Assembly: GCF_002706795.1 (NCBI RefSeq)
Contig: NZ_CP017705.1
Location: 1,553,501-1,617,500 of the forward strand
Source of the DNA: Brevibacillus laterosporus DSM 25
GTDB lineage: Bacteria > Bacillota > Bacilli > Brevibacillales > Brevibacillaceae
Reading direction: 5' to 3'
DNA length: 64,000 nucleotides
Position 1 is the first letter of the stretch. Each line of letters starts with the position of its first letter. A program made the position numbers and the translations under genes. Below, piece after piece: positions 15,101 through 54,100 of this stretch. Under the pieces are notes generated by a model. It had not been told where the DNA came from, made no database searches, and saw nothing but the letters and a program-made list of their open reading frames with translations.

Positions 15101-15292
15101 TTTCTTTGTTACGGTTTGTTCCATTTTTTCTGGAGTTGCCCCCGGATAAATGGTTGTGACCGTAGCCATACTGACAATGGTGTCTGGTTGTTCCTGCTTA
15201 GGAAGTGAACGGGAAATGAATATCCCAATTAGCACCACCATCGTAAAGAATACAAGCGTTATTTTTCGCTTTTTGATGAAATACTCAATCAT
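12185..15292 (-). CDS. RND (HAE1/AcrB-like) efflux permease
   Basis: Proton-driven multidrug or lipid exporter of the RND superfamily, 1035 residues with the duplicated 6+6 transmembrane plan. Signs are an N-terminal TM1 (MIEYFIKKRKITLVFFTMV), the porter-domain text PGATPEKMEQTVTKKLEEKI, and TM4 motif GILVDDAVVVNDNIERR with proton-relay Asp396-Asp397 present. The second half carries GSNLQETDRIV and a C-terminal basic tail. The start is set at 15292 (behind GGAGGGGGCAAACAGC), excluding an 18-codon extension within the adaptor gene. It overlaps the adaptor gene by 8 bp, so the two are translationally coupled. Gram-positive members of this clade often resemble YerP/SwrC of B. subtilis (surfactin export), which is of interest next to a lipopeptide NRPS. 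Confidence 0.9.
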   Translation of the reverse strand: MIEYFIKKRKITLVFFTMVVLIGIFISRSLPKQEQPDTIVSMATVTTIYPGATPEKMEQTVTKKLEEKINEVQGIKSISSESRSGISLITVRSESKVEPKKVFEELRKKVKDAETDLPEEAEQPIINDDMSRTFIQTFQITTESFEEILQLRDTLDLWKDQLRTIPGVSDVSILGLPKQELKIHINAQRLQQYKISWTQVMNAVRTKNETTPLGDVNIDTRKYQLTMPVSYNADTFKKVIVTRTTDGVPVYLQDIATISDSTKRLEYRTYYNGKPAVTVSINGELGSDVPRVQKAIDQKLETLEKNLPSWAKKEPVFSQVDRIDELFSGLFHEMLIAIVAVLFICRLGLNLTTSMMVALAIPISLSAGMAVLPFFGITLNQMTIFGLIIVLGILVDDAVVVNDNIERRLSILGEDPYTAAIFGTKEVSVSIITATLATVSAFGPIIFLPGDAGHFIFPVPVIIIFSMLASMLMSLTIVPIFREWNERRNKKQTNYQKPAGLLGKQINSLIHWYGDRVMPIMLKNPLKTGVIGVLIATVFYGLITFIPVQLFPDDDRPQMIVNISTPVGSNLQETDRIVQSVTEWIQQQPHIEKVSAFVGGNGPQMIPSAPPVGSGENMAQLVITFDNKQMDSRKVLKPWMAQFKQMYPEANIIPYSVKAAMYTGSPVAIRVYGDDLHQLYAISEQIKQLIAETRGTYNINDTLGNEQYSLQFNVNQGNMDKKLISEADLTRTLRLISQGIPMGQFDNGKNLVDITLLADQSGMTTQQVFEQLTVPNVQGQLIPVAQIAEMKPSLSLQNIPRYNLSRSVTITSDVGDRTANDVMRELKEKMERLELPAEYAWNVTGETEEETDILLDLGMLAVVAVFLIFLLIVIQFNSLSIPILVMSTVYLAISGSLIGLFITRTPIGFMTVAGFISLSGIVVRNGIVLIEFIEEARHTGVELKEAVIGAGKARLRPILLTTLAAIAGLTPMAITGSVMFKPLAITIISGLLFSMLLTLIVVPSLYTVLAIGKQRKIARKKAREQINSQQVEKPL

Positions 15293-17070: not shown

Positions 17071-20000
17071 TTACTTCAGAGCAAAACTCGCTTCGAGAAT
17101 CTCTTTGAGTATGGAGCCATTTTTAGTAACTTGTTCTCCGCTAAGCATCCTCGGATGATCTCCATAGCCACGATAGTTTATAAATCGTTCAGATGCTCGT
17201 GCCCACACTTCCTCATTCCATTTTTCAGCCTCATAGGCTGTTACGTTTCCTTGCTCGCATTCTGCTTGGATGAGATGAATAGCGGCCTTTGTATTACCTT
17301 TATTTACCAATTGATTATGGAACATCAGATAACTGAACATGTTTTGAAAAAAACTTTGTTTGATAAAATCGTTAGTTATGAACTGCTCTAGATCCTCTTT
17401 TGTCATATTAAACAGCTCGTTATTTTCTGCTATTTTTTTAAAATAGGCTCCAATTTCTTTTCTTGCTTCAGTAGCCGTTTGTTCAATTGCTTTATCCTTC
17501 CAATAGGAGTCAAATAAAATAATGCTGGACACCTGTCTTCCTTGGTTTTCCAATACTTTTGCTACTTCAAAAGCTAAATTACCGCCAGAGGAATACCCCA
17601 TCAAAGTATACGGCCCCTCAGAATCGATCTGAGTAATTGCATTGACGTACTGCTCAATGCGATTGTCTTCTTCTATGAAGTCAAAGCTATATAAAGAAAT
17701 GTCGTGGACTTCTTCAGCAAGCTTTTGATAGAAGGTACTGTGGGCTGCAATCGGTGTAAAGCTAAATACAGGTCGATTTGTTTCTTTATTTAGTAGAATC
17801 GGGTGACCCGCGTTTTGCTCGTACTGCTTATGCAAGATAAATTCTGCCATTTTTTCAATCGTTGGATGCTGGAATACAAGATGTAGTGGCAACTCTTCCT
17901 GCATGTACTCATACACCTTTGATATGAGAAGCATCGCTTTTAAGGAATGTCCCCCGATTTCAAAGAAATGATCAGTGATGCCAATTTTCTCTACTGCTAA
18001 TACTTCTTTCCAAATAGCAACCAGTTGTTCCTCTACCATGTTTCTAGGGGCAATATATTCTTTTGCTGCAACGCCGACGTTCTGAGGCTTTGGCAATGCT
18101 CTCTTATCTACTTTTCCGTTAGCAGTAGTAGGTAGTTCTAAAAGCTGTACGAAGTAGGTAGGAACCATGTAGGCTGGGAGTTCCTTGGAAACAAATTTTC
18201 TCAAATCAGCCAGTACAACTTCTTTTTCAGCTACAAAGTACGCACATAAAAATTGCTGTGCATGTTGATCCTCTTGAGCAGTAACCACTACCTCCTTAAC
18301 ACCATGGTACTGAAGAATGGTAGATTCGATCTCTCCTATCTCAATTCGGAAACCTCGTACTTTGACTTGTTCATCTACCCGACCAACATATTCTATCGTG
18401 CCATCTGGACGCCACTTGGCCAAATCACCCGTTTTATACATGCGCTCCCCAGATACAAATGGATTAGCAACGAACTTCTCTTCTGTTAATTCTGGTCGAT
18501 TTAAATAACCTCTACCCAGTCCACGACCCGCTATGCATAACTCCCCTACTACTCCTATAGGCTGTAAATGATGCTCATTATTAACAATATAGACAGTTAC
18601 ATTGGCTAGCGGTCGACCAATTGTAATCTCTTGATCTACTCCAATTGCTCTTTGGATAGTCGTAACTACACTATTCTCTGTAGGTCCATATTCATTGTTA
18701 ATCTCAATAGCAGGATTTTTTTGTTTAATCTTTTGGACAATTTGGGGTGATAATTTTTCTCCTCCAAGAGTGACACAACGTAATTGGTGTAAATCCTCTG
18801 CTGTAGCGCTATCCACAATTGCATTAAACAGACTTGGAACACCATAGTAATGAGTGATTGATTCAGAGGCGATCAATTTTCGTAGTGCAAATGGATCTTT
18901 TGACTCTTCTTCCCTTGGCAAGATCGAAATGGCCCCTCCAAGCATAGGAGCAAACAAACTAGCTACAAATCCATCAAAAGCAAATGAGAAAATCTGCAGA
19001 GCTTTATCCTTTGGATTAAATGCATACTCGTCTCTTCTCCATTGCAGGCAGTTCACGATGGAATGATGTTCAATCATGACACCTTTTGGTTTACCAGTTG
19101 TACCTGAAGTATAGATGACATATGCCAAGTCAGTTGGTTGGTTCACAACTGTGAGATTGGTTCCATCAACTACATAATTTTGCTCCTCATCTAAATCTAG
19201 CCTCACCATATTAACTGCTAATCCATTGAACAAATGCGACTGGGTCAGTAAAAGAACAGCACCGCTATCTTCTAAGACATATTCAATACGTTCAGTAGGA
19301 TAAGCTGGATCAATAGGGACATAGGCTGCTCCAGCTTTCAAGATACCCATTATACCGATAATCATTTCTACGGAACGATCTACCATAATAGCTACTAGTT
19401 GATTGGGAACGATTCCTTTATTACGTAACGTACGAGCTAATTGGTTGGCTCTTTCATTTAGCTCTTGATAAGTCAACTCCTTCTTGTTCCAGATAAGTGC
19501 TACCTGATCTGGTGTTTTTCTTACCTGTTCTTCAAAAAGCTGATGAATCGTTGTATCCTGCTGATAGTTTCTTTCTGTGTTATTAAACTCTTGTAAAAGC
19601 TGATTTTTTTCTGCATTCGTCAGTATTTCGATAGTAGCTAGCTTCACTTCAGGATTATCTACGATCGCTTTTATAATCTGAAGGAAATTTGTCGTCAAGC
19701 GTTCTATTGTTTCCTGACGGTACAATTTGGTGCAGTATTCCACACCAATCATAATTTGATCTCTTTCTTCTGTGGCGATAAGGGTGATATCGAATTTAGA
19801 GTGTTTCCATTTATTTTCCCCTTCATAGGCAATAAACCGTAGCTCATCTAATTCAATAGAATCTTCTCCTCTGTTTTGGAGAGTAAACATGGTATCAAAC
19901 ATTGGATTTCTGCTTACATCGCTTTGTAGCTCCAGTTTCTCCACTAGCTCTTCAAATGGATAATCCTGATTCTCATAAGCTTGTAATGCATTTTGTTTTA

Positions 20001-23000
20001 CTTCTATTAAAAACTCTCTAAATGATTTTGATCTAGCTGGTTTATTTCGCATGGCCAATGTATTGACAAACATCCCAACAGTGCTCTGTAAATCAACATG
20101 CGATCGACCTGTAACCGGTGTACCCACAATCAGATCTTCTTGACCCGAATATTTGGAAAGAAGTACATTATATGCGGCTAACAAGACCATATAAAGTGTG
20201 GTTCCTGTGTCTGCAGCTATCTTGTACAAGCCTTCCATAAGCTCTTTGCCAGTTCCTCTTGTGATTACATCTCCGTCAAAGCTTTGTGTATTTGGTCTCG
20301 GAAAATCTGTCGGTAGATTTAACACAGGAATTTCATCTGCAAATGTTTGAACCCAGTGGTCTTCCTGTTTTTTATACAGATCCGTCTGAGACTGTTCATG
20401 TTGCCATTCAGAAAAATCCTTATATTGAATCGTAAGCTCTGGTAACGTATTCCCTTGATACAATTCCACCAATTCGCTGATGATGATCCCAGATGATACT
20501 CCATCAGAAATAATGTGATGCGTATCTACTAGTAACAAATAACGATCCAATCGGGTTTGAACAAGCTTGACGCGAAGCAATGGTGCCATATTTAACTGGA
20601 ATGGTTTGATAAACTCATCAATGATTTCTTCCAGCTCTTCTTCAACAGTTACCTGATAATCGACTGCAAAATCAACTACTGAATGGATTTTCTGTACAGG
20701 AGAACCATTTACTAACTCGAAGGATGTACGCAAGCTCTCATGACGGTTGATTAAACCTTTAAAAGCGGTTTCTAGTTTTACCAGATCAAGTTTTCCTTCC
20801 AGTAGCATGATAGAAGGCATGTTATAGCTGATATCTATCCCATCAAACTGGTTAAGAATAAACATTCTTCGTTGTGCTGCTGAAACCGGATAGTAATCTT
20901 GCTTTGTAGCAGGTCGGATAGAAATGATCTGCTTCATGCGCTCGCTCTCCAAGTATTGGGATATTTCTTCGATCGTTGGTTTTTCAAATAGGAAACGTAA
21001 AGGAATATCCATTTGATACTCTTTGTGCATTTGAGTTATAACCATCATAGCACGTAAGGAATGACCACCTAATGCGAAGAAATCGTCCTTACATCCAACT
21101 CGATCAATACCTAAAACTTGTTGCCAGACAGTAGCAAGTTGTACTTCCAATTGTGTTCGAGGAGCCACATATTCTGTGTTAAGCAAAGAATTGTCTGGAT
21201 CTGGTAACGATCGCTTGTCAATTTTTCCATTTGCAGTTAATGGCATCGCCTCAAGTGAAATAAACGTAGAAGGAATCATCGCGATCGGTAGCTGAGTTGT
21301 TAAATGGGCACGTATTTCTGCTGTACTTACCTCTCTATCCGTAACCATATATGCGCAGAGGAATTTTTCCTTCGCTTGATCTTCCTTCGCTACAACGACT
21401 ACTTCTCTTAGACCATCAAGCTTACGCATTTGTGACTCAATCTCACCAAGTTCGATCCTAACCCCACGGATTTTTACTTGATCATCAATTCGGCCCAAAT
21501 ATTCAATATTTCCATCTGGTAGCCACCTTGCTAAGTCCCCTGTTCTATACATTCGTTCTCCCGCGACAAACGGATTTTTCACAAATTTCTCTTCCGTAAG
21601 CTCCGGTCGATTCAAGTACCCTCTTGCTAGACCAACACCAGCAATGCATAACTCACCTGCTATCCCAATTGGTTGAAGGTTCTCAGAATCAGCCTGGACG
21701 ATGTATAGTTGAGTATTATATATAGGTTTACCAATCGGAATTGCAGCTAGTTCCTCATCTGTATCACAATCAAAATACGTAACATCGACAGTAGCTTCCG
21801 TTGGTCCGTATAAATTGATTAATCTAGCTTCACACACTGAGGAAACTGCTCGACGGAATCTATCAACATGCTGTGGTGGCAATGCTTCACCACTTGCAAA
21901 AACCTGCCGTAAAGACTGGAGTTTTTCCTCTGCCAACTCACTTGGCTGTTGTTCAACATAATCCAGAAAAGCGTGCAGCATCGCAGGAACAAAATGCATT
22001 GTTGTAATGCGATGTTCGGCTATTGTCTCTAAGATTTGCTCAGGGTTCTTTTCTCCTCCTACAGGTAAAAGGCACATTTTGGAGCCCACCATCGACCACC
22101 AGAATAGCTCCCATACTGATACGTCAAACGTAATCGCTGTTTTTTGCATAATGGTGTCAACGGATGAAATAGGGTATTTTGCATGCATCCACATCAGTCG
22201 ATTTATAACTGAATGATGTTCAATCATAACTCCTTTAGGCTTCCCTGTAGATCCTGATGTATAAATAACATAGGCTAAGTGATTCGGACCATTTATCGCT
22301 TCCAAATTTGACCTATCTTGGTGGTAGGTTTGAGCATCATTGATATCTACTATTTTCCCGTCAAAAGTTACTCGCTCCAACAAATGATTCTGGGTCAAAA
22401 GTAGCTTTGCATTTGAATCTTCTAACATATAGCGAATTCTTTCCTCTGGAAATTCCGGGTCAATCGGCATATATGCACCGCCAGCTTTTAAAATCCCAAA
22501 AATTCCAATAATCATTTCTAATGAACGTTCTGCCATGATTCCAACTAATTGATCAGCTACTACTCCTTCAGAACGTAGCTTTCGCGCTAACTGATTCGCT
22601 CTTTCATTCAGTTCCCGGTAAGAAAGTTGTTCCCCCTCGCAAATGACAGCTATCTGATCTGGTATACGTGCTGCTTGTTCTTCAAATAGCTGATGAATCT
22701 GCTTTTCGCGCGGATATTCCATTACAGTATTATTAAATTCAGATATAATCATATTTTTCTCTTCTTCTCGAAGCAGGGATATGTCCGCTATTTTTGATGT
22801 AGGATGATGAATGATTGTTTCAATAATGGTAAAGAATTGTTGAATTAGTTGTTCCATCTCCATTTCTGTAAACAACTGTGCTCGATAATTTAGTTGAAAC
22901 AGAATTTTTTGATTATCTAATTCAATCACATTCATTTCAAAATCATTAATGACGTCTCCACAAAAATTCTCATCAACTTCAATTTCAACATTTTCATACT

Positions 23001-24084
23001 GCGAATAATTCATAGCACGGTACTGTACAGAAACACCAAAGAGACGTTGAAGGTTCTTATGCTGATGTGCTTCTCGTAAATCTTCCATCATTTGATTGTA
23101 CGGGAATCTTTGATGGCGTAGGATCGAAACCTGCTCTTTTGATACGACTTTCAATAATGAAAGCAAATCCATCTCAGGATCAACGAATACCCGTGTTGGC
23201 ACTGTACTAACGAACATTCCTAGCATTTCTTTTTCCTTTTTGGTTGTTCTGTTCGCATAGAATGTGCCAATTGAAACATCGTTCTGTGTTGTCTTTTTAT
23301 GCAAGTAGATGTACAACGCAGTCATAAAGACTGTTAACATACTACTGTTTGTTTGTTTGCAAAACTCATACAGGTTATAATACAAACGCTCTTCTAAGAT
23401 AATATTTTTTCTTTTTCCAGCAGTACTCAAGGTAAGAGAATTATATGATTTAAACCCTATCACTTCGGGTAAGGTGCTAAATTTATCTACCCAATACGAT
23501 TTATCCTTTTGATAGCGATCCGATTTTTCATAGTCCTGCTCCGTTTGTATATAGTCGAAATAAGTATGATTCTCTGTTATTTCTGGAAGCTCATCATTTG
23601 CAATCTGAGAATAGTATTCGTTCGCTTGATTGACGAACATTCTTGCAGAGATTCCGTCGCAGACAATATGATGAATTTTGACATTGTACCAATATTCTTG
23701 GTCACTAATCTTGCAAATGATAAATTGATACAATTTTGAATGTAGAAGTTCAAATGGTGTACGATTGTGCTGGTCCAGCCACTTTAATGCCTGAGCTTCT
23801 CCATCAACACCTGAAAAATCTAAACATTCGAACGATTTTTCGCTATATTCCTCCACATATTGCTGAGGATAGCCATTTTGAGCTGTCAATTTAATCCGAA
23901 AGGCATCGTGCCGGAAAATAATCATATTTAGAGCTTGTTGCAAGGCACCTAGACTTATATTACCTTTCATTTTAATTGTCAATGAAATCGACGATACACC
24001 CGTATTTGGATAAAGTAATTCGGAGTACCAAATCCTTTGTTGAGGATGAGTCAACGAAAATAATTGAAGCAAATCCTTATTCAT
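17071..24084 (-). CDS. Two-module lipopeptide NRPS, C-A(Ser)-T-C-A(Leu)-T-TE
   Basis: Non-ribosomal peptide synthetase of 2337 residues. Domains in order: C1 with HHIVCDG at ~138; A1 (~465-960) with selectivity Asp at 654; T1 with phosphopantetheine Ser1009 in LGGHSLRA; C2 with HHIISDG at ~1189; A2 with key Asp at 1704; T2 with Ser2047 in IGGHSLKA; TE with GYSSGG nucleophile Ser2165. Reading the specificity positions gives D-V-W-H-F-S-L-V-D-K for A1, a known serine code, and D-G-A-Y-T-G-E-V-V-K for A2, a known leucine code. C1 closely follows the starter C domain of surfactin synthetase (RIWYSELLYPNTG, KEKEMLGMFVSTVPTR, LRHQRFPYN), so it should load a fatty acyl group. No epimerisation or methylation domain. 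Predicted product: N-acyl-Ser-Leu, released by TE as acid, lactone or cyclic oligomer. Ribosome site AGAGGTG. No stand-alone loading or 4'-phosphopantetheinyl transferase gene nearby. Confidence 0.92.
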   Translation of the reverse strand: MNKDLLQLFSLTHPQQRIWYSELLYPNTGVSSISLTIKMKGNISLGALQQALNMIIFRHDAFRIKLTAQNGYPQQYVEEYSEKSFECLDFSGVDGEAQALKWLDQHNRTPFELLHSKLYQFIICKISDQEYWYNVKIHHIVCDGISARMFVNQANEYYSQIANDELPEITENHTYFDYIQTEQDYEKSDRYQKDKSYWVDKFSTLPEVIGFKSYNSLTLSTAGKRKNIILEERLYYNLYEFCKQTNSSMLTVFMTALYIYLHKKTTQNDVSIGTFYANRTTKKEKEMLGMFVSTVPTRVFVDPEMDLLSLLKVVSKEQVSILRHQRFPYNQMMEDLREAHQHKNLQRLFGVSVQYRAMNYSQYENVEIEVDENFCGDVINDFEMNVIELDNQKILFQLNYRAQLFTEMEMEQLIQQFFTIIETIIHHPTSKIADISLLREEEKNMIISEFNNTVMEYPREKQIHQLFEEQAARIPDQIAVICEGEQLSYRELNERANQLARKLRSEGVVADQLVGIMAERSLEMIIGIFGILKAGGAYMPIDPEFPEERIRYMLEDSNAKLLLTQNHLLERVTFDGKIVDINDAQTYHQDRSNLEAINGPNHLAYVIYTSGSTGKPKGVMIEHHSVINRLMWMHAKYPISSVDTIMQKTAITFDVSVWELFWWSMVGSKMCLLPVGGEKNPEQILETIAEHRITTMHFVPAMLHAFLDYVEQQPSELAEEKLQSLRQVFASGEALPPQHVDRFRRAVSSVCEARLINLYGPTEATVDVTYFDCDTDEELAAIPIGKPIYNTQLYIVQADSENLQPIGIAGELCIAGVGLARGYLNRPELTEEKFVKNPFVAGERMYRTGDLARWLPDGNIEYLGRIDDQVKIRGVRIELGEIESQMRKLDGLREVVVVAKEDQAKEKFLCAYMVTDREVSTAEIRAHLTTQLPIAMIPSTFISLEAMPLTANGKIDKRSLPDPDNSLLNTEYVAPRTQLEVQLATVWQQVLGIDRVGCKDDFFALGGHSLRAMMVITQMHKEYQMDIPLRFLFEKPTIEEISQYLESERMKQIISIRPATKQDYYPVSAAQRRMFILNQFDGIDISYNMPSIMLLEGKLDLVKLETAFKGLINRHESLRTSFELVNGSPVQKIHSVVDFAVDYQVTVEEELEEIIDEFIKPFQLNMAPLLRVKLVQTRLDRYLLLVDTHHIISDGVSSGIIISELVELYQGNTLPELTIQYKDFSEWQHEQSQTDLYKKQEDHWVQTFADEIPVLNLPTDFPRPNTQSFDGDVITRGTGKELMEGLYKIAADTGTTLYMVLLAAYNVLLSKYSGQEDLIVGTPVTGRSHVDLQSTVGMFVNTLAMRNKPARSKSFREFLIEVKQNALQAYENQDYPFEELVEKLELQSDVSRNPMFDTMFTLQNRGEDSIELDELRFIAYEGENKWKHSKFDITLIATEERDQIMIGVEYCTKLYRQETIERLTTNFLQIIKAIVDNPEVKLATIEILTNAEKNQLLQEFNNTERNYQQDTTIHQLFEEQVRKTPDQVALIWNKKELTYQELNERANQLARTLRNKGIVPNQLVAIMVDRSVEMIIGIMGILKAGAAYVPIDPAYPTERIEYVLEDSGAVLLLTQSHLFNGLAVNMVRLDLDEEQNYVVDGTNLTVVNQPTDLAYVIYTSGTTGKPKGVMIEHHSIVNCLQWRRDEYAFNPKDKALQIFSFAFDGFVASLFAPMLGGAISILPREEESKDPFALRKLIASESITHYYGVPSLFNAIVDSATAEDLHQLRCVTLGGEKLSPQIVQKIKQKNPAIEINNEYGPTENSVVTTIQRAIGVDQEITIGRPLANVTVYIVNNEHHLQPIGVVGELCIAGRGLGRGYLNRPELTEEKFVANPFVSGERMYKTGDLAKWRPDGTIEYVGRVDEQVKVRGFRIEIGEIESTILQYHGVKEVVVTAQEDQHAQQFLCAYFVAEKEVVLADLRKFVSKELPAYMVPTYFVQLLELPTTANGKVDKRALPKPQNVGVAAKEYIAPRNMVEEQLVAIWKEVLAVEKIGITDHFFEIGGHSLKAMLLISKVYEYMQEELPLHLVFQHPTIEKMAEFILHKQYEQNAGHPILLNKETNRPVFSFTPIAAHSTFYQKLAEEVHDISLYSFDFIEEDNRIEQYVNAITQIDSEGPYTLMGYSSGGNLAFEVAKVLENQGRQVSSIILFDSYWKDKAIEQTATEARKEIGAYFKKIAENNELFNMTKEDLEQFITNDFIKQSFFQNMFSYLMFHNQLVNKGNTKAAIHLIQAECEQGNVTAYEAEKWNEEVWARASERFINYRGYGDHPRMLSGEQVTKNGSILKEILEASFALK

Positions 24085-33669: not shown

Positions 33670-34929
33670 TTACATCTGTTGCTCAACAACTCGCTTATTT
33701 GCAAAATTCTTTTGAAAGATATAGTAGTAAAAAATGGCCGCTAGAAGCATACATGTGCCGTGTATGAAGAACAAGAAGCTTACACCTATATAGACGGGGA
33801 AAGTAACAGCGATAATTCCCAACGTAATAGAATGTGACAGCATCATCATAGGCGTAAGACACCCGTATACTCTTCCAATTATTTTGGGGTCAACGAGGCT
33901 TGGCAACCAACCACCAAAACCTATATTTAATAAGGGAAAAGCCAGAGAAATGAAAAAATCAAGGAGAATAAAAATGGAAACGTTGTTCGTAAGACCTGAG
34001 AAAACAACCGAGATCCCCATAATCATAAGGGAAAGAACTGCTATGTGATATAGTTTCATTTTAGTTGCTAAATAGGACCCGACTACACTTCCAAACAAAG
34101 CACCTACTCCTGACACAATCCCCATCCATAGCAATACTGTCTCATATGACTCTGGAGCAAGTTTGTACTTCAATGCGTAAGTAGGAATGAGTGCATAACC
34201 GGCATTTATAATTCCAAATAGAAAAAAAGCACTTGATATGGCTAATACTAGTTTATTATTCCAAATATATCCAACGCCTTTACTGAAATCTGATATCAAG
34301 GCTCCTATTGATACATCTTTCCACGATTTCTCACCATTTGGCAATCTGATTTCTACTTTGATATGGCATAATTGGATTAGCAATCCAGATACCAGATATG
34401 ATATGGCATCTACCAAGATTGCTCCCTCTATACCAATGTGCCAATAAAGAAAGATACTAATGGAACTGCCTACTAATATAAGAATACTGTTTACCATTTG
34501 ATTTAAACCGGTAGCTACTGGATATTCCTTTTCGGTTAAAATGCCTTGCATGATAGCTCTTTGTGCAGGACTAAAAAAATTAGAGACTGCACTCCTCACA
34601 AATATGATGAAAAAGGAAAGGACGATGGAATCAATGGCAATAGCAAAAAGTAATCCTAGAGAAAGAAAAGCACAAATAAAATCCGCCCAAGAAGCAATCT
34701 TTTTGCGGTCAAAACGATCTGCCACAGCACCGATGAACAAGAAAATGACAAGCATGGGGAGAGAGTACATTAATTCTGTAATGGTGGCAAAGATAGGCTG
34801 TGAAGAAAATCTTGTAAGAATATACAATGTGAATGCGATGAGACCAATTTTATTGCCCATAGAGGAAGTTACATTCGCCAGAAAAAGATATGTATAGTTT
34901 TTATTTTTGAATATTCTTATGATATCCAA
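33670..34929 (-). CDS. MFS transporter, probable exporter of the RiPP locus
   Basis: The protein is 419 residues with about 12 membrane helices, of the drug/peptide-exporter MFS type: GAVADRFDRKKIASWAD in the TM2-TM3 loop, SAVSNFFSPAQRAIMQGILT in TM4, and VSGVGALFGSVVGSYLAT in the second half. The start is TTG 34929, eight bases after AAGGAG. It follows the PqqD-like gene by 151 bp in the same direction, so by position it is the likely exporter of the modified peptide or its immunity function. A general drug-efflux role unrelated to the locus is possible. Confidence 0.82.
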   Translation of the reverse strand: MDIIRIFKNKNYTYLFLANVTSSMGNKIGLIAFTLYILTRFSSQPIFATITELMYSLPMLVIFLFIGAVADRFDRKKIASWADFICAFLSLGLLFAIAIDSIVLSFFIIFVRSAVSNFFSPAQRAIMQGILTEKEYPVATGLNQMVNSILILVGSSISIFLYWHIGIEGAILVDAISYLVSGLLIQLCHIKVEIRLPNGEKSWKDVSIGALISDFSKGVGYIWNNKLVLAISSAFFLFGIINAGYALIPTYALKYKLAPESYETVLLWMGIVSGVGALFGSVVGSYLATKMKLYHIAVLSLMIMGISVVFSGLTNNVSIFILLDFFISLAFPLLNIGFGGWLPSLVDPKIIGRVYGCLTPMMMLSHSITLGIIAVTFPVYIGVSFLFFIHGTCMLLAAIFYYYIFQKNFANKRVVEQQM

Positions 34930-34973
34930 ACCAAAATCTCCTTCTTAACGTACAAATATTTTTAGATGCTACA

Positions 34974-35019
34974 GGGCATGATTGCATGTACTTACTTATT
35001 ATCTTAGATGGTCATGCCC
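34974..35019. repeat. Inverted repeat between PqqD-like and MFS genes
   Basis: GGGCATGA (34974-34981) and TCATGCCC (35012-35019) are perfect complements around a 30-base loop. It could be a partial terminator or a processing hairpin that separates exporter expression from the maturase. Confidence 0.5.
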
Positions 35020-35080
35020 CAAATTGTTTGACGTTGATATCCATCATTTTCGTTGTCATGATAGCAAATAGAAACATTAC

Positions 35081-35356
35081 CTAGGTAGTAAGTAACCTAT
35101 GCCTAACTAATTCATCTAAAAACATCTGTATATCATTTGTAATCATCGTATTTTCTGTATTAACATTAAATTTTCCCGATATCTCTTTTAGCATCTCTTC
35201 TAGCGTAATTGTTTCTTTCGTACAAATATGTGTCCACAGTGTACAGGCTACTTCATCCTCAAACAATATCGTTTGTCCTTCAGGTGTAAGGACAAATATA
35301 CCCTCTACATTTTGATCATAAAAGATATCTTTGTTTACTTGATAGGGAGACATCAT
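35081..35356 (-). CDS. PqqD-like peptide-binding (RRE) protein
   Basis: The protein is 91 residues with a PqqD/RiPP-recognition-element fold: three N-terminal strands (GIFVLTPEGQTILFEDEVA) followed by helices (CTLWTHI, EEMLKEISGKFNV, DIQMFLDELVRHRLL). Such proteins hold the leader peptide and present it to the radical SAM enzyme. Its ATG overlaps the last base of the TAA of the radical SAM gene (TAATG), with AGGAGG upstream, so the two are translationally coupled and probably work as a pair. Confidence 0.85.
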   Translation of the reverse strand: MMSPYQVNKDIFYDQNVEGIFVLTPEGQTILFEDEVACTLWTHICTKETITLEEMLKEISGKFNVNTENTMITNDIQMFLDELVRHRLLTT

Positions 35357-36651
35357 TAGGAAGGAACCTCCTCTTTTGATTTTCTAAAATAATTCCACAT
35401 ATGTTTTTTCAAGTTACTTTTTATAATTTTGCACTCTTCCGTGTTTGTGCCATCTATACTGTCTGTATCGCTCCATTGGATAGCTCTACATCCACCACCA
35501 CACATATGTTTAAATGTACACTTTCCGCAAATTGGTAAGTTATCCGTGATTCTGTTTCGGGATGCAGTAAAGACTGGAGATTCGTAATAAATTTCTTCTA
35601 ACGATTTGTCTTTTACATTTCCACCTAAAAACTCGGGATTATGCATGATTTTACAGGGAAATACATCGCCTTTGCTATCAACCGAAAACTCACTATACGC
35701 GTGACCACAATGATTTTTAATGAAAAACTGGTTAACAGCATCAAAATTAGGTTGTTTGTTGATGATTGTGTTTTCGATTTTTATACGTTGCACATAATTT
35801 AATTCGTGTTCGTGAGTCTTGCCTCTTCCTAATGAAGCTACAGGAGATATAATGAGCCTGATGTTATTTTTATTTGTATAATCGATTACGTCCCCCACAG
35901 CATCCATATTATTTTTCGTGATTGTCTGGTTAATTTTTAACTTACAACCAGCTTCTAGCAATAAATCAATGGCCTTTTTCGCCTTCTGCCACGATCCTTT
36001 TCCCCTATTTTTGTCATGCTCGTCCTCGATCATGGAATCAAGGCTTATCGTTACTAATTTCGTAATCTCGGCAATTTTTTTAGCTATCTCTTTGTTAGAA
36101 ATAAAAGAACCATTTGAAATCATATGGACATTCAACCCTAAAGAATCGGAATATTCCATTAATTCCACGAGATCTTTTCGTAAAAATGCCTCTCCCCCTG
36201 TAAAAACAATCGTTTTTGTCCCTAATTCCTTTACTTCTGTGATGACTCTTTTAGCCTCTTCGGTAGAGATATCATTATCCATAGATCTGCTGGGGCTACT
36301 TTCTGCATAACAATAGACACAATTTAAATTACATTTGTATGTTGTAACAAAATAAACAGATTTAGGTACAGGTTTATGCATACTTTGCTTGTTCTCAGTA
36401 TCTACATTAAAGCTATCAATCTTATACAGTCTAATCAAACCAATGACCCTTTTTACCAAACTTGCATCGTACTGTTCATCAATTAAACCCTGCGGTGACT
36501 TTTTGTTGTAAATCATTTCATGCGCTATTTCATATTCTTGCTGATTCAACACAATCCAACTACTCACCAAGTAATTATGAATAATATAGTCTTCCTTTTC
36601 TCGATAGACAGCTAATTTTGGAAAAGTTAATACATCATCGGTTACTAACAT
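35356..36651 (-). CDS. Radical SAM/SPASM peptide maturase
   Basis: The protein is 431 residues. Residues ~5-80 form an N-terminal recognition-like domain (LAVYREKEDYIIHNYLVSSW). The radical SAM core has the cluster motif CNLNCVYC (Cys107, Cys111, Cys114), then FTGGEAFLRKDL and TISLDSM. The C-terminal SPASM region has CGHAYSEFSVDSKGDVFPC and CGKCTFKHMCGGGC, room for two auxiliary [4Fe-4S] clusters. This layout is shared by sactipeptide/ranthipeptide-type thioether synthases and related maturases. Likely substrate is the 33-residue peptide encoded 79 bp upstream. Ribosome site GGAAAGGAATG. Bond type formed cannot be told from sequence. Confidence 0.9.
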   Translation of the reverse strand: MLVTDDVLTFPKLAVYREKEDYIIHNYLVSSWIVLNQQEYEIAHEMIYNKKSPQGLIDEQYDASLVKRVIGLIRLYKIDSFNVDTENKQSMHKPVPKSVYFVTTYKCNLNCVYCYAESSPSRSMDNDISTEEAKRVITEVKELGTKTIVFTGGEAFLRKDLVELMEYSDSLGLNVHMISNGSFISNKEIAKKIAEITKLVTISLDSMIEDEHDKNRGKGSWQKAKKAIDLLLEAGCKLKINQTITKNNMDAVGDVIDYTNKNNIRLIISPVASLGRGKTHEHELNYVQRIKIENTIINKQPNFDAVNQFFIKNHCGHAYSEFSVDSKGDVFPCKIMHNPEFLGGNVKDKSLEEIYYESPVFTASRNRITDNLPICGKCTFKHMCGGGCRAIQWSDTDSIDGTNTEECKIIKSNLKKHMWNYFRKSKEEVPS

Positions 36652-36677
36652 CGTATCATTCCTTTCCTAATAGAAAT

Positions 36678-36713
36678 AGTAATGGCACTATTTTTACAAG
36701 TAGTGCCATTACT
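36678..36713 (-). terminator. Attenuator-like hairpin between precursor and maturase genes
   Basis: AGTAATGGCACTA and TAGTGCCATTACT form a perfect 13-bp stem with a 10-base loop, followed on the minus strand by TTTCTATTAGG. Partial termination here would give far more precursor transcript than maturase transcript, a usual arrangement in RiPP operons. Confidence 0.7.
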
Positions 36714-36730
36714 ACTATTACCTATGTGTC

Positions 36731-36832
36731 TTACGCTCCTGCTCCATTTTTTGAACCACATTGACAAGAATCAATTACATCAATTACGCCAGGGTTTACT
36801 ACTTTCACTTTTGGTGTTGTATAATTTTTCAT
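36731..36832 (-). CDS. Putative RiPP precursor peptide, 33 residues, Cys-x-Cys core
   Basis: Small gene below usual gene-calling size. ATG at 36832 preceded by a textbook ribosome site (GGGAGGTGAGAGT) and a sigma-A promoter. The peptide starts MKNYTTPKVKVVNPGVIDVI, a leader-like part, and ends DSCQCGSKNGAGA with two Cys separated by one Gln and a small-residue tail without aromatics. Position (promoter, peptide, hairpin, radical SAM, PqqD, exporter) makes it the substrate of the maturase. The Cys residues would be the thiol donors for thioether links; acceptor residues are unknown. I do not recognise the family. Confidence 0.85.
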   Translation of the reverse strand: MKNYTTPKVKVVNPGVIDVIDSCQCGSKNGAGA

Positions 36833-36876
36833 ACTCTCACCTCCCTTCTATAAATAGCATAATTTAACTTTACTTA

Positions 36877-36905
36877 AATTTACTGTTAATTCAATATATT
36901 GTCAA
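36877..36905 (-). promoter_or_regulatory. Sigma-A promoter of the RiPP operon
   Basis: Minus-strand -35 TTGACA (36900-36905, perfect) and -10 TAAATT (36877-36882) are 17 bp apart, about 45 bp upstream of the precursor ATG. Confidence 0.75.
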
Positions 36906-40988: not shown

Positions 40989-43900
40989 TTACCTATCCGT
41001 ACGCGGTATTGGTTGAAAGTCTTCTGGACAGAGCTTTTCACGTCTATCTCCAGATTCTTCTGCGCTCTCTTTCTTTATTCTTCCTTTATTTACTAACCAC
41101 CCTACGCTTTGGTTAGAATCACTTGATTTGGTGAGAGAACGTCTCCCTCTATTATTCCACCAATGGATAAATGATTGGCGTAGTATGACTCCTATGTGGT
41201 CTCGATGCTCATTTTGTTGACTAGGTCCATATCGATATAAGCTTGGTACTATATAGAGCATGATCCATGGAATACATAGGAATCCTACTGACATAACTCC
41301 CAAGAAGGAACTAAAGAAATAGCGATTCGTCCATCCAAACAAGAACGGCAGAAACGGAATGAAAAAAACGCCCACGATACAAAGAAGGCTTGGCATATAC
41401 ATAAATGTAGCCGTTTTCCCCCTATGTGATTGAATTAAGCTCAGCTCTCCTTGCTCTGGGTACTCTTCAAAATAACGACACATTAGCAATATTTGTTGTG
41501 TTAAAAAAGTAATCAATGACAGTGTAGCAAATACCGCTGGCTGATTGACAGGTAAATCCCAAATCGCTACCCCTGCAACTAATGGCACCACCAGTAGCGG
41601 TGTCAGTAAGATAACGATGATCGTCGAACGCAACTGTTTCAACACAGTAGCTACCAATAGAGCAATCAATATACTGATCGTGAATGTGACAATGAATGGC
41701 CCCTTTTGTTCCCAGCCTTTTACACTGTGCTCCTCTAGTTCTTTATCAAGTGGCGTTACTATTTTATAATCGGTTGGCAATCGAATTTCTTTTTTGAAGG
41801 TTTCTGGCATGCTGTAATACAGAGTCCTTGGTGTAGTCGGAAACTTCCCTTCTCCCTGCTTTTTAACGGTTGCATGAATATTGATTTGATACGTCTTATC
41901 CGTCCGTATATAGGTAGGAGATAGAGTTTTATGTTGCATGATCACTAACTCTCCCAGCGGTTTCAGTCCATTGAGGGTCTTAATAGGCGCTTGTTGTAGC
42001 TGGTCAGGATAATCCATGTACAACTTGGGATAGCGTAGTACAATCTGACTTTTCACACCATCCCATTCTACCGTACTCACCTTTTGTGGGCCTAAGTAGC
42101 TGTTCATTTGCTGCTCAACATCTTCAGCAGATACACCGTATAAACTAGTGATCTCAGCTTTGGGAACGATCTCCATTTGTTGCCCTTCTGAATTTTCACT
42201 GGTCATCACATTGTATACCTGTGAGGATAACCCGTCGCCTGTCTTTTCCATTACTTGTATGACTTGATTCGCTACTTCTTTTACTTTTGGCAAGGAGGGG
42301 CCTTGAACGGTAAATTTCACTTTCTCTTCGTTCTCTACCCCTGACTGAGCAAATTTAACTGAATAATTAGCATCTGGTACATTGGATAATATTGTATCAA
42401 TATTCTGTTTTATTTTATAACTACTACGCTCCCAGGAAGATTGATTTTGATACTGTAAATAAAACGTGATGCTAGACGGTGTCACATCCATATAGGAATC
42501 TTGAAGCTCAGGAATCGTTTTACGTAGCATGATTTCCGTATCCTTGGCCTTCTGAAGAGCTTCTACCATTGGTGTGTAGGGCGGAAGGTCCAATGTAAAA
42601 GTTTGACTAGTGTCACTTAGTGTTTTGGATTCATTTTGATTCCATTGTAAGAAAGGGTCAGCTTGCGCAAACGGGCCACAAAAGAAGTAAACACCCCATG
42701 CAGCAAGTAACGCTAGTAGATATGGTAATAAGCCCAGTTGCATACGCTCGTACCAGGTTGATATGATTTTTTGTTGTATCCAATTCCTCATGCGTTGAAG
42801 GGCATGGGAATCTGTATTTTGATTAAATTCTGTACGTGAGCTACGACGATTTATGCTGCTTATGTGCTTGCTAGGTTGCTCGTGCTCGTTGGAATCAGGT
42901 CCTTTTCGTGCCCGAAGCCATAGAGCAGCAGTTGTTGGTAGAACGTATAAATAGATCAGACAAACCCCGATTCCACCCCAAAGCAGGATCGGAAGTGCTG
43001 GTAATAAACTAAGCTTGTCCTCTTCTTGTAAAAGGCGACTATACAAAAGGGGGATAAACAATAAACTAACGATAACAAGCGGAAGGATAATAGGAATCCA
43101 CCTGCTCTTAGTTGCCTGCCAAACCTGTTGATCATTCCAGATCTGTATGAGCGCATAGCGTTCAAATAAGAGCATACCTGCTCCTAGACATAGGGTAACT
43201 ATCACCAACAGCGGTCCGACAGAAGCAATGGTAAAGGTCTGATCTGTAAAATAAAGACCAGTCGCTAGCACGAGCAAGGTTAGGAGAACGGAGACTAATA
43301 GCAATAATCCAGCCTTCCATTGACGCATCCGATAACCAATATAGAGAGCTGCCAAAATGGAAACTCCACTAAAAAGAGCAAGGACAATCCGCATGGATGC
43401 CAAAGCCTCCTGGAGTGCTCCAGATCTGATAAACAATTGGTATTTCTGATTTGCTTCTCTATTTAGCTCAGCTGTTTGTTGACGGAGCTGCTGATCAATT
43501 GTAAGAAGGGATGCTTCGTTTGCTGCGAAAAGCTGATACTCAACTACAGGCTCTCCGTGATAGAACCTCAGTGACTCACCAATCTCATAGCGTGAATCAC
43601 GAATATCAACCAATTGATGTAATGCTACTTCCCCTTTTGGTGTAGAAATGGTCAACGTAGATAAATCTTCTAAAGAATGAGACGTATTATTCCATGAGAA
43701 CGTGGTACCATCTACACCTTCACCAATGCTTCCAAGTGATTCATTCTTCCCTTTATTTTGCAGCTCTCTTACAATGTCACCTGGCGTTAGCTGATAGGCT
43801 TGTAGCATAGAGGGGCGAAGTAATAATTCAATCTCATTTTGTACATTGGGTGATTTTACTACTACCTGTGATATCCCATCGATACGTTCGAGCCTACCCT

Positions 43901-44372
43901 TTATCTCGTTCTCTGCCAGTCTCTTCAATTCAGGAATAGCCAGACCAGTCATAAACACAATCGCAACAGGCTCTTGATACAATTCCTCCTGTTTTACCGT
44001 AATAGAATCCTTACCAATCCCCAATCCTTCACTATCGTTTAGCTTAGCTTGTAGCTTTCTAAAAAAATCATTGCCAAAATGATTCTCTGTCTCAATTTCA
44101 ATTTTTGCTTGCCCTTCCTTGGAGATAGCTGTTAGCTTTTTAATTCCAGAAAGCTCTCTTATCATAGCTTCAGCTGGTTGAGAAATCTGTGCTTCTACTT
44201 CATCTGCTGAAAGTCCCTGAGCCGTAATCTCAACTTGATAAATCGTTTTTTTCACATCAGGAAACACGAGCAGAGGTATGGAAGAAAGCGAGATTAATCC
44301 TAGTAACAAAATAAGCCCCACTGTAAGAAGTAACAACTGCTTTCGCGGATGTTTCGTCATAGGATCACTCAT
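40989..44372 (-). CDS. Divergent RND permease lacking TM4 Asp pair
   Basis: The protein is 1127 residues, RND superfamily by its plan: TM1, a porter domain (QVEITAQGLSADEVEAQISQ), a TM2-TM6 block, a central hydrophilic linker with a basic, Asn/Ser-rich stretch around residues 495-540, then the second half and a polar 60-residue tail. The TM4 segment reads LCLGAGMLLFERY (Gly397-Ala398-Gly399) where proton-driven RND pumps have the Asp-Asp pair. Sequence is otherwise uninterrupted and the operon has its own adaptor. Overlaps the adaptor gene by 8 bp. It may be a pump of different energetics, a regulator, or a degenerating copy. Confidence 0.82.
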   Translation of the reverse strand: MSDPMTKHPRKQLLLLTVGLILLLGLISLSSIPLLVFPDVKKTIYQVEITAQGLSADEVEAQISQPAEAMIRELSGIKKLTAISKEGQAKIEIETENHFGNDFFRKLQAKLNDSEGLGIGKDSITVKQEELYQEPVAIVFMTGLAIPELKRLAENEIKGRLERIDGISQVVVKSPNVQNEIELLLRPSMLQAYQLTPGDIVRELQNKGKNESLGSIGEGVDGTTFSWNNTSHSLEDLSTLTISTPKGEVALHQLVDIRDSRYEIGESLRFYHGEPVVEYQLFAANEASLLTIDQQLRQQTAELNREANQKYQLFIRSGALQEALASMRIVLALFSGVSILAALYIGYRMRQWKAGLLLLVSVLLTLLVLATGLYFTDQTFTIASVGPLLVIVTLCLGAGMLLFERYALIQIWNDQQVWQATKSRWIPIILPLVIVSLLFIPLLYSRLLQEEDKLSLLPALPILLWGGIGVCLIYLYVLPTTAALWLRARKGPDSNEHEQPSKHISSINRRSSRTEFNQNTDSHALQRMRNWIQQKIISTWYERMQLGLLPYLLALLAAWGVYFFCGPFAQADPFLQWNQNESKTLSDTSQTFTLDLPPYTPMVEALQKAKDTEIMLRKTIPELQDSYMDVTPSSITFYLQYQNQSSWERSSYKIKQNIDTILSNVPDANYSVKFAQSGVENEEKVKFTVQGPSLPKVKEVANQVIQVMEKTGDGLSSQVYNVMTSENSEGQQMEIVPKAEITSLYGVSAEDVEQQMNSYLGPQKVSTVEWDGVKSQIVLRYPKLYMDYPDQLQQAPIKTLNGLKPLGELVIMQHKTLSPTYIRTDKTYQINIHATVKKQGEGKFPTTPRTLYYSMPETFKKEIRLPTDYKIVTPLDKELEEHSVKGWEQKGPFIVTFTISILIALLVATVLKQLRSTIIVILLTPLLVVPLVAGVAIWDLPVNQPAVFATLSLITFLTQQILLMCRYFEEYPEQGELSLIQSHRGKTATFMYMPSLLCIVGVFFIPFLPFLFGWTNRYFFSSFLGVMSVGFLCIPWIMLYIVPSLYRYGPSQQNEHRDHIGVILRQSFIHWWNNRGRRSLTKSSDSNQSVGWLVNKGRIKKESAEESGDRREKLCPEDFQPIPRTDR

Positions 44373-45627
44373 GGGAACTCTCCTTCACTGCTTCACCCTC
44401 TGCTACGTATGATAAACCAGATCGAACTATGACCTGTCCATCAGAAATTCCCTCTTTAATTTGATACATATCATTGTGAATAGCACCTACTGTAACGATT
44501 TGCCGCTTTGCTTTTCCGCCATCTATGACAATTACAAATCGTTCCCCATCCTGTAAGCCGACTGCTGATACGGGAACATAGATATCCTTACTGTCTTTGC
44601 TTGTAATTTGGGTAGAGACAGTCATACCTGTTTTCCAATTTTGTGGGTTGCCTAGCACGGCTACTTCTACCGTGTATGTACCCTTTTTCTCATCTAGTAT
44701 GGGGGATACGAATGTGACGACGCCAGGAATGGAGGTATTTCCAACCGATTGAATCGTAAGCTTTGCTCCTTGCTTCCATTGAGTGATTTGACCACTATTT
44801 ACCTGAAGATGGACAATCCAAGCACTATCGTCCATTAGCTTTACAACAGCTTGGCCAGAACCTATCTGCTCTGAAACATTCTGATTTACCTCAGCAACGA
44901 TCCCAGAGAAAGGGGCAATCAATTGGGTGGCTTTTAATTCTTGTTGAGCTCTAGCCAGTTGTACCTGCGCCTGTTTAATGCCAGCATGTAAAGTGGTTTG
45001 ATCAGCGAAGCTTGGCTTTTGCTGCAATTTAGAAGAACGATTCTGCTCTGCTTGCAAATCAATCATAGCTTGTTTTTGTGCTTGATCCAGTCGATCCAGT
45101 TCGCTTTTAGCAATAGCCCCGCTGTCGTATAATCGTTTTCCTTTTGACAGCTCATCGTTGGCTACTGCAAGCTTCTGTTTGGCCTTATTAATTTGCAATT
45201 GTAGATCATACAAGTCATGCTGATCAGCCCCCTGTAAGCCTTTTATTTTTTCAGCACTTGCCCGTGCCACTTGAGATTCGGCAGATGCAATTTCCTGTTG
45301 CCATACAGTCGTATCCAACTGGGCTAACACTTTTCCTGCCTCTACTTTATCTCCTTTTTTCACGTTGATTTGAGCTATTTTACCGCTTGCTCCAAAGGAT
45401 AAGGACATTTCCTTGGCCGCGGCAACAATTCCATAGGTTGTGTTTCTTTCATTTGTTTCTAAAGTGGATACACGATAGCTTGGAACCGTCTTTATTTGTA
45501 GCCCCATGTCCCCCATGGCAAAGTATCCTTCTCTCATTTCTTCCATCTGATCAACATTCGATTTCATTTTATCGCAACCACTCAACATAAGTAGGAATGC
45601 AACACCTAATAACATCCTTTTTCTCAC
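44365..45627 (-). CDS. RND membrane-fusion lipoprotein adaptor (second system)
   Basis: The protein is 420 residues starting at GTG 45627 behind GGGAAGTG (an ATG four codons in is the alternative). Lipoprotein signal ends LSGC (Cys18). Then lipoyl half (LSFGASGKIAQINVKKGDKV), coiled-coil hairpin around residues 110-210, second lipoyl half (LIAPFSGIVAEVNQ), barrel and membrane-proximal domains (VPVSAVGLQDGERFVIV). Same architecture as the adaptor at 15285-16532 but diverged. Promoter region upstream is AT-rich with no clear hexamers. Confidence 0.88.
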   Translation of the reverse strand: MRKRMLLGVAFLLMLSGCDKMKSNVDQMEEMREGYFAMGDMGLQIKTVPSYRVSTLETNERNTTYGIVAAAKEMSLSFGASGKIAQINVKKGDKVEAGKVLAQLDTTVWQQEIASAESQVARASAEKIKGLQGADQHDLYDLQLQINKAKQKLAVANDELSKGKRLYDSGAIAKSELDRLDQAQKQAMIDLQAEQNRSSKLQQKPSFADQTTLHAGIKQAQVQLARAQQELKATQLIAPFSGIVAEVNQNVSEQIGSGQAVVKLMDDSAWIVHLQVNSGQITQWKQGAKLTIQSVGNTSIPGVVTFVSPILDEKKGTYTVEVAVLGNPQNWKTGMTVSTQITSKDSKDIYVPVSAVGLQDGERFVIVIDGGKAKRQIVTVGAIHNDMYQIKEGISDGQVIVRSGLSYVAEGEAVKESSHE

Positions 45628-51195: not shown

Positions 51196-54100
51196 TTACT
51201 CTTCATGCAATGGTACTGCAAGCCCCATTGCCATAGCTACCAGATAGCGTTTCGTAACTGGCTCCTTCCAGCTCTCCTCAAGAGCACGTGTGTACAAACT
51301 TATTTGCTCGTTATATCTTGTCCGGAGTAGTTGAACTGCTTCGTTCTCGTTTGCTGGTAATCGATCCGTTTTATAATCGATCAACGTTAATCCACCGTTC
51401 TCCTCCCGAATAACGCAATCAATTACCCCCTGCACAAGTACCCGTTCATCACCTGAATCAGTTAGTAATAATTCTGTTTGTTCGGCAAGCAAACGTGATC
51501 TAATATCACGTAGAGGAACTGCAAGTGTAAATGGTAACTCTCTGTACACCTTGATAGCTTTTTGCATACGTTGCCCTAAATCACTGGCAAAAAAGCGTGC
51601 TATAGAGGCAATATCTACTACATTGGCTTGCTCTCTAGTCAACATCTGTCGTGCTATCATTTGCTCAATTTGATCAGTAACATTCGCTTGATCTAAAGCT
51701 CTATTCAACTCTACATTTTGCATAATCAAATGTGTAAAGGTACCTACTTCCGCCTTCGTAAAAATAGGTTTTTCATCCCGTGTTTTATTTTCCAGCTTCC
51801 CCCGTTTTTCCATCTTGCTTGTAGCAGGATCACTGCTAGTCATAATTTTTATATCATCAATTTCACTGTTTATTCCTTCTCTATTCTGGTCCATATCAGC
51901 TAGAAAGCGCGGTTTTTTTGTGAGTCTCGATCGATGAGAATTCGGACTCTCTGCTATCTTTTCAAGGTTTGGATTAAGATGACTGTATCCTTCAGCTACA
52001 GATCGAGTTGGCGACTGCATATCGGTTTGGCTTTCCAGTCCTGATACAGATTGAGAATGTGTTTCTATACGATCATTCTCCCAATCAATCTTAACGCCGT
52101 CTTCTCCCACTCCCTCAGTTAGATTTACAGCCTGGCTCTTCAATTGACTGACACTCCACTTAGCTGGTACCTGTGATACAACCTGTGGAGCATACTGCCA
52201 CTCTAGAACAGACCTAATCTTATCACGCCACTCCTCCGAGTGCGGATGATCAGGAACTGGCTTTCGTTTCTGCAATAAGGAAAAAACTTCCTCATCATGC
52301 TCACTCTGCTCGGTTATCGCAATAAGATCGCTCGGCTGATAAAACTGGAACTGCCATACAGACGGATCACGTACTAGAGGAATTGAGGAATTATCCTGAG
52401 TATCTGGGCACAGCAAGCGTAATGGTTCTCCATTTTTGTGTCGTACTAATGCTCTGCCAATCCAATCAAGATATCCCTTCGCTTGAACTAAATCTTCATC
52501 AGATAGAGTCTCTTTATCTGTAGACTGGCTGCACCAAGCGATGGCTGATTTGCTCAAATCCTTAGCAGAACCCACAAGGATAAGCTTCTCTCTAGCTCGA
52601 GTCAACGCTACATAGAGTACGCGCATCTCTTCTGCTAGCATCTCTAATTTAAGCTTTTGACGAATGCCTAAAAAAGCTAAGCTGGGATAACGCAGGCGCA
52701 AAACTGCATCAGCTACCTGCGGACCAAAGCCTAGATCCTTGTGCAGTAAAAAACGACCTTTCATATCGCTTTGATTAAACTGTTTACCCATTCCAGCCAC
52801 AAATACAACTGGGAATTCCAATCCCTTACTCTTATGAATGGTCATTAAACGGACTACATTTTCACTTTCCGTAATAGTCCTCGCTTCTCCAAGATCATTC
52901 TCTTGCTCCTGCATCCGGTCAATAAAGCGTAAAAATCGAAACAAACCACGATACGAGGTGGCTTCGTATTGCTTAGCTCTGTCATATAATGCGCGTAGGT
53001 TTGCCTGCCGCTGTGAACCGTTCTCTAGCGATGCTACATAATCAACGTAGCCTGTCTCTGTATATATATCAGACAGTAATTCTGCCACCGAGCTTCGTCT
53101 TCCCCGTGTTCGCCAGCCTTGTACCATCCGATAAAATCGGCGTAGCTTTGCCATGACGACTCGATTCAGCTGTTCTTCTTCGGCCATTACATACTGTTCG
53201 ACCGCCTGATAAAAAGGCCCCGTAGGAGTCAACACACGAATCAGAGCTAAATCCTCTTCGCTAAGCCCAATAAGAGGCGAGCGTAGTACCGCCGTTAGAG
53301 GGATATCCTGTTTCGGATTGTCTATGACGCGTAGTAACGACATGATTATATCCACTTCATTTGCAGAGAAGTAGCCCTGATTCTGTTCTACATAAATAGG
53401 TATGCCAGCTTGCTTACATTCGTCTGCTATTGCTTGTCCCCAGCCCGCTGTAGCTCGGAGCAAAATAACAATGTCCCGATATTCCAGGGGACGCATTCCC
53501 TGTGTTTTTTTATCAAAAACGAGTAAGGGCTGACCGCCCACACCCGGTTCTAGCCACTCCTTAATACGCTTGGCAATCAATCGTGCTTCTAGCTGAGCAA
53601 CAGAAGCTTCCTCTTCCAGAGTAGGTAGAGCTTCTACCTCAGTATCATAGCTATCTATACTTCCTATAGAGTTAGTACTTGTTCGCTCCGACACTTGCCC
53701 TGAGTTGGATTCCTCCGATTCAAATCCCGTACGATCGATTAGGTGAACTTCAACCGCCAATTGCTCAGGCTCTATCTCTGGATAGGAAGCCCGACCAATC
53801 AATTCCGCCGCTTGATCGTAAGTAATCTCACCTACACGAGGTGTCATAACTAGACGAAAAATATAATTGACTGCATCCACTACTTCCTTTCGACTGCGGA
53901 AGTTAGCGGCCAAATCAATTCGCTTTCCCTTTAACTCCAGAGGTGCATCTTGTTCCTTAGGGGCGAAAGGGTCCTTTTCTTCATTGGTTTCATACGAATC
54001 GTACTTTTGCATAAATAGATTAGGCTCAGCAAGTCGGAAGCGATAAATGCTCTGCTTAACATCCCCTACCATGAAACGATTTGCTGCCACTTCCGCTGTC

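Follow-up and report, generated by a model that had tools for sequence, protein, structure and literature searches.

A divergent Sts-type radical SAM cassette with a predicted thioether peptide product in Brevibacillus laterosporus

A short peptide gene placed in front of a radical S-adenosylmethionine (SAM) enzyme gene raises the question of which modification the enzyme installs and whether the system has a precedent. Such a cassette lies in a 64,000-nt stretch of Brevibacillus laterosporus DSM 25 (hereafter the window, to which all coordinates refer), itself part of a 5.4-Mb genome of the B. laterosporus group. On the minus strand it encodes, in this order, a 33-aa peptide, a radical SAM/SPASM enzyme of 431 aa (the maturase), a PqqD-family protein of 91 aa and a major facilitator superfamily (MFS) transporter of 419 aa. 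An earlier interpretation of the letters alone (the sequence-only reading) had proposed a radical SAM locus for a ribosomally synthesized and post-translationally modified peptide (RiPP), with a thioether as the likely modification, and the comparisons described here support that proposal. They also support in part a more specific assignment, namely to a divergent and uncharacterised RiPP system of the Sts type that nevertheless has precedent, and we consider it quite likely that the cassette product is a thioether-bearing RiPP of this type. The features of the cassette are as follows (RRE, RiPP recognition element; pLDDT, predicted local distance difference test).

36877-36905, minus strand: promoter-like site TTGACA-17-TAAATT, matching 10 of 12 consensus positions.
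36839-36845, minus strand: ribosome-binding site GGGAGGT, read from the sequence, just 5' of the peptide ATG.
36731-36832, minus strand: precursor peptide, 33 aa, conserved beside the maturase in 12/12 genomes and under purifying selection in relatives.
36812-36823, minus strand: Y4-x-x-P7 leader motif, predicted to be recognised by the RRE and without variation across the Bacillota family.
36758-36766, minus strand: Cys23-x-Cys25, predicted thioether donors, both Cys invariant.
36737-36745, minus strand: Gly30-x-Gly32, predicted thioether acceptors, invariant at +5/+7 from the last Cys.
36678-36713, minus strand: perfect 13-bp hairpin between the precursor and maturase genes (fold z = -5.0 in the 80-base intergenic stretch).
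35356-36651, minus strand: StsB-related radical SAM/SPASM maturase, 431 aa, with Radical_SAM and SPASM domains and StsB as best family.
36424-36621, minus strand: maturase N-terminal RRE-like domain, residues 11-76, predicted beta3-alpha3 (pLDDT about 45-84).
36310-36333, minus strand: CNLNCVYC cluster motif, residues 107-114, with invariant cysteines.
35431-35709, minus strand: SPASM cysteines C315 to C407, seven invariant, in canonical spacing.
35081-35356, minus strand: PqqD-family protein, 91 aa, a discrete RRE (Pfam PqqD, PF05402).
33670-34929, minus strand: MFS transporter (MFS_1), 419 aa, predicted exporter or immunity pump, with a TTG start.

The precursor peptide (MKNYTTPKVKVVNPGVIDVIDSCQCGSKNGAGA) has two Cys, one residue apart, and a core without aromatic residues. 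A scan of the genome collection with the single maturase protein returned one near-identical locus only. The orthologous maturases, separated by a wide score gap from all other proteins, come from 12 genomes in four lineages, and a small CxC peptide is encoded directly upstream of the maturase in each of these 12 loci. The sequence-only reading had staked its case on a conserved small peptide at this position, and the expectation is borne out at the amino-acid level as well. Among the Paenibacillaceae precursors (genera g33, g408 and g412), silent sites differ by 27-65% and replacement sites by 0-9%, and the corresponding values for the precursors of genus g44 are 34% and 15%. Of two close relatives of the window, one carries a peptide with two residue changes and the other a peptide with two changes and one in-frame codon loss. 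Judging from these substitution patterns, the peptide is a genuine gene under strong purifying selection where divergence allows the test. Across ten distinct aligned peptides, the invariant residues are M1, Y4, P7, C23, C25, G30 and G32.

All the parts that had been read from the letters were recovered on the minus strand, including the one-direction gene order, the PqqD gene start overlapping the radical SAM stop codon (TAATG), the strong ribosome site before the peptide and the perfect hairpin. The promoter stands less well: the TTGACA-17-TAAATT site is present and is the joint best in its stretch, but similar matches number 17 versus 16.9 in shuffled sequence, which is chance level. Every lineage has a hairpin after the precursor stop codon, yet the hairpin sequences are unrelated between lineages, which fits an element that would keep precursor expression above enzyme expression.

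Among NCBIfam models, StsB (NF045574) scores best against the window maturase (271 bits), and it ranks first for every lineage whose maturase was tested (257-271 bits, with runner-up models at 144-163). The CNLNCVYC motif and the auxiliary-cluster cysteines, both already noticed in the letters, are invariant in the 12 orthologs, the SPASM set reading C315-x12-G-x4-C333, C375-x2-C378-x5-C384-x3-C388 and C407. Orthologous precursors match the StsA model (NF045558) at 4e-7 and 4e-5 and the StsA-related CxC model (NF045559) at 0.004-0.005. In a maximum-likelihood tree, the Bacillota maturases form one clade (96/98), and StsB falls inside a larger group containing this clade (88/86, not strongly supported), apart from MftC. 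The first 75 residues of the maturase are predicted to form an RRE-like beta3-alpha3 unit, and a structure search with the maturase model ranks CteB, SkfB and SuiB first; this search serves as supporting evidence only, because the model is of low confidence (see below). The same genome encodes two more radical SAM proteins (contig C1, about 5.30 Mb; L002 and L003), which are encoded on opposite strands with about 1 kb between them, have 33-35% identity to the maturase over the SAM domain and join radical SAM proteins of Paenibacillus polymyxa plasmids in the tree.

Plasmid records, when searched, yielded a true StsB (738 bits): it lies on the megaplasmid pSCAT of Streptantibioticus cattleyicolor and is surrounded by a precursor MVSSWIKPDITSAEPQMLPPACSCGCGSGGGGGAGS (WIKP...CSCGCG...GAG), a PqqD-like protein and an ATP-binding cassette (ABC) exporter; a phage search for maturase relatives gave nothing useful. 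The gene table of the plasmid collection holds no feature at this StsA/StsB locus (L072:4744-6383). The actinobacterial StsABC system and the window cassette share the order of precursor, radical SAM/SPASM enzyme, discrete PqqD-type RRE and exporter, a W/YxxP leader, a CxCxC or CxC motif with a Gly-rich tail, and maturases that align over their full length. They differ in that the two maturases are only 29% identical, the window proteins score below the family cut-offs and the host belongs to Bacillota, and in that the S. cattleyicolor system has three Cys and an ABC exporter whereas the window has two Cys and an MFS protein. The discrete PqqD-type RRE is a known arrangement for Sts (PMC12710340), and the PqqD protein of the window passes the Pfam PF05402 gathering score (25.3 versus 23.4 bits). 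Leader sequences of the W/YxxP type are recognised by StsC and other PqqD-type RREs, and the StsA alanine variants W-15/V-14 and K-13/P-12 lose binding (PMC12710340). The Y4xxP7 motif, invariant in the Bacillota family and with Trp in place of Tyr in StsA, fits this recognition class, and RRE binding is predicted for it.

How new, then, is the system? The sequence-only reading had found no known RiPP class for it; the divergence stands, with scores below the cut-offs, but StsB is the best family and the precursors of relatives match NF045558 and NF045559. Because its scores are well below the NCBI cut-offs, the Bacillota branch is, as far as such profiles can place it, a divergent and uncharacterised relative of Sts, and not a member by NCBI criteria. 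Reportedly, StsB of Streptomyces sparsogenes was found to form sactionines by Precord et al. 2023, who are also said to have described six new sactipeptide groups through catalytic-site profiling, one of which might be the Bacillota branch. The claim of novelty for this branch is limited accordingly, as it could coincide with one of those groups. An equation of the NCBI families StsA and StsB with streptosactin was dropped, since Sts is described as an actinobacterial system (PMC12710340).

The conserved tail offers a clue to the crosslinks. After the last Cys, positions +1 to +4 vary (GSKN, GALA, GFVT and AFSV), but Gly occupies +5 and +7 in every peptide. The three-Cys (CxCxC) peptides carry an extra Gly at +9, and the two-Cys peptides of B. 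laterosporus end short of +9. A nested antiparallel ladder would account for the two-residue spacing and also for the third Cys and the third Gly being absent together. Shuffled tails reach the common register in 3 of 100,000 draws; since the sequences have a common ancestry and the joint absence counts as a single event, the register suggests a ladder rather than demonstrating one. The StsA peptide of S. cattleyicolor is compatible with it, a fit made little informative by the Gly richness of that peptide.

The cassette places a radical SAM/SPASM maturase beside a Cys-containing precursor, as sactipeptide systems do, and we regard it as likely that it is a sactipeptide operon (forming sulfur-to-alpha-carbon thioethers) of a divergent, StsABC-related Bacillota branch that works as follows. 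The PqqD protein, the N-terminal RRE-like domain of the maturase or both would bind Y4xxP7. SAM would then be cleaved at the CNLNCVYC cluster, the alpha hydrogen of the acceptor residue abstracted, and the thiolate of a Cys, positioned at an auxiliary cluster, joined to the acceptor alpha carbon. Two thioethers, with the loss of 4 H, would take the full precursor from 3392.69 to 3388.66 Da. Among possible arrangements, a nested hairpin ladder of Cys25-Gly30 and Cys23-Gly32 would be the most likely, with a third rung, Cys21-Gly34 (alignment numbering), in three-Cys relatives; we propose this exact connectivity tentatively. A host protease would cut off the leader before the CxC motif, and the MFS protein would export the product, which would probably be a signalling peptide or an antibacterial of narrow spectrum.

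Several observations weigh against this interpretation. The window maturase falls far below the StsB cut-off (271 versus 625 bits), the precursors of relatives reach 23-30 bits versus an StsA cut-off of 42, and the window peptide itself matches none of the family models searched, StsA included. In a BLAST comparison, the PqqD protein of the window had no match to the PqqD-like protein of S. cattleyicolor. The maturase structure model has a pLDDT of 58. No protease or ferredoxin gene lies within the window cassette, the most compact form, which would have to draw electrons and leader removal from host factors. Finally, the evidence for the Gly pattern comes from four lineages that are related to one another and from a single joint loss, and Gly30 and Gly32 may be conserved for a turn instead.

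If thioethers are formed, they could be arranged differently. The small unnested rings of streptosactin (GGG, streptococci), also the product of a short radical SAM/SPASM sactipeptide system with a Gly acceptor, join Cys25 to Ser28 and Cys31 to Gly34, each from i to i+3 (PMC8172795), and an analogous pattern in the window peptide would link Cys23 to Gly26 and Cys25 to Lys28. We consider such rings unlikely: the Cys-x-x-acceptor spacing is not conserved, the residue three positions after the last Cys being Lys, Leu, Val or Ser, in contrast to the constant Gly at +5 and +7, and the streptosactin-named models match neither the maturase nor the precursor. The described streptosactin core, moreover, has no CxC spacing, and its locus is distinguished by Rgg/SHP control and a protease. 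The window cluster has no Rgg regulator or protease of the kind found in GGG systems; beside it lie genes for a hydrolase and a PucR-type regulator, the same two that border the empty site described below.

Somewhat less probable still is a ranthipeptide, in which each of the two Cys would be linked to a beta or gamma carbon of a residue other than Gly, for instance Asn29 or Lys28. Radical SAM/SPASM enzymes with RREs make such links too (PMC11002830), the SCIFF and ranthipeptide maturases CteB and PapB among them, and CteB, a ranthipeptide enzyme, is the top structural match. However, the tail residues that never vary are Gly, a residue without a side-chain carbon, the side chains between Cys and Gly vary, and the PapB model gives relatives 80-91 bits versus a cut-off of 340. 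Known precursors of this class have several Cys and Asp, Thr or Glu acceptors, and neither these nor the SCIFF/ranthipeptide pattern (six Cys in about 45 residues, or repeated CX3D) is found in the window precursor.

A change other than a thioether, for example an oxidation as in mycofactocin biosynthesis, appears improbable. CxC could then be a disulfide or metal-binding motif, as it binds metals in other proteins. The mycofactocin system (MftABC) likewise combines a small precursor, a PqqD-like protein (MftB) and a sequence-related radical SAM enzyme (MftC), and MftC is among the next-best models after StsB. Its score of 149.6 bits is nevertheless below the cut-off of 265, MftC stands apart from the Bacillota family in the tree, the gene order there is precursor-PqqD-radical SAM, and cofactor genes are present. 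MftA ends in a C-terminal Val-Tyr, whereas the window precursor lacks Val-Tyr, has no conserved C-terminus and has no aromatic residue in its core. Assignments to streptosactin, SCIFF/ranthipeptide and mycofactocin were thus considered and not supported. That the peptide is a chance open reading frame and the maturase acts on another substrate is scarcely credible: it has merely 33 codons and alone matches no family model, but its place in 12/12 loci, purifying selection and the in-frame codon loss in one relative contradict this.

Where did the cassette come from? In a sister genome of the same genus (G027), the flanking genes, which encode an alpha/beta hydrolase and a PucR-type regulator, sit side by side with about 100 bp between them, and the genome has no maturase match at E <= 1e-40. 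Because the flanks adjoin there without it, the cassette is most simply seen as an acquired unit, and its ends as deduced from G027 agree with the coordinates given in the sequence-only reading. Its G+C content is 35.0%, versus 41.2% for the window, within the lowest 1% of equal-sized stretches. Another genome of the genus (G028) has a maturase that is 47% identical, lies at an unrelated genomic place and clusters with Paenibacillaceae sequences in the tree, which points to probable horizontal transfer.

The lineages also differ in accessory genes. Within the family, the MFS gene occurs in the B. laterosporus group only, the other lineages having ABC exporters. A small ferredoxin gene is found in the examined Paenibacillaceae clusters and in G028, and both the Paenibacillaceae and the g44 clusters have a gene for a protein resembling signal peptidase I. 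The latter protein (L021:7580-8320; orthologs in L019, L020, L032, L033, L036 and L037) matches TIGR02228 at 9.7e-7, which is below the cut-off, and the Paenibacillaceae form has GNCMHP at the position of the catalytic-serine motif, perhaps with Cys as nucleophile. Between the ferredoxin and ABC exporter genes of the Paenibacillaceae clusters lies a gene for a conserved protein of about 430 aa (L019:8401-9690 and orthologs) with no Pfam or NCBIfam match. Elsewhere in the window, positions 17071-24084 and 12185-16532 together hold the genes for a two-module nonribosomal peptide synthetase (C-A-T-C-A-T-thioesterase) and, adjoining on the same strand, for a resistance-nodulation-division (RND)-family pump and an HlyD-type adaptor. 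This Gram-positive genome has another large RND-family (ACR_tran) protein, 1127 aa long, encoded at 40989-44372 in a gene that overlaps its upstream neighbour (44365-45627), and an AddA/AddB-type helicase-nuclease gene pair lies at 51196-58850.

The sactipeptide interpretation gives precise and cheap predictions: a loss of 4 H in two-Cys and 6 H in three-Cys peptides, with Gly30 and Gly32 as acceptors in the window peptide. More speculatively, and with considerable doubt, the Bacillota branch may be undescribed and have a new regular topology, a beta-hairpin in which thioethers run from alternate residues of the CxC/CxCxC strand to alternate residues, invariably Gly, of the opposite strand. 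The number of rungs would then be set by the number of Cys, and B. laterosporus would have the minimal two-rung form. If true, few sactipeptides would be smaller or more regular than such short Gly-only ladders, which would offer peptide engineering a simple scaffold. For the family, the assignment would extend Sts-type enzymes from Actinomycetota to Bacillota, whose members are missed by current NCBI cut-offs.

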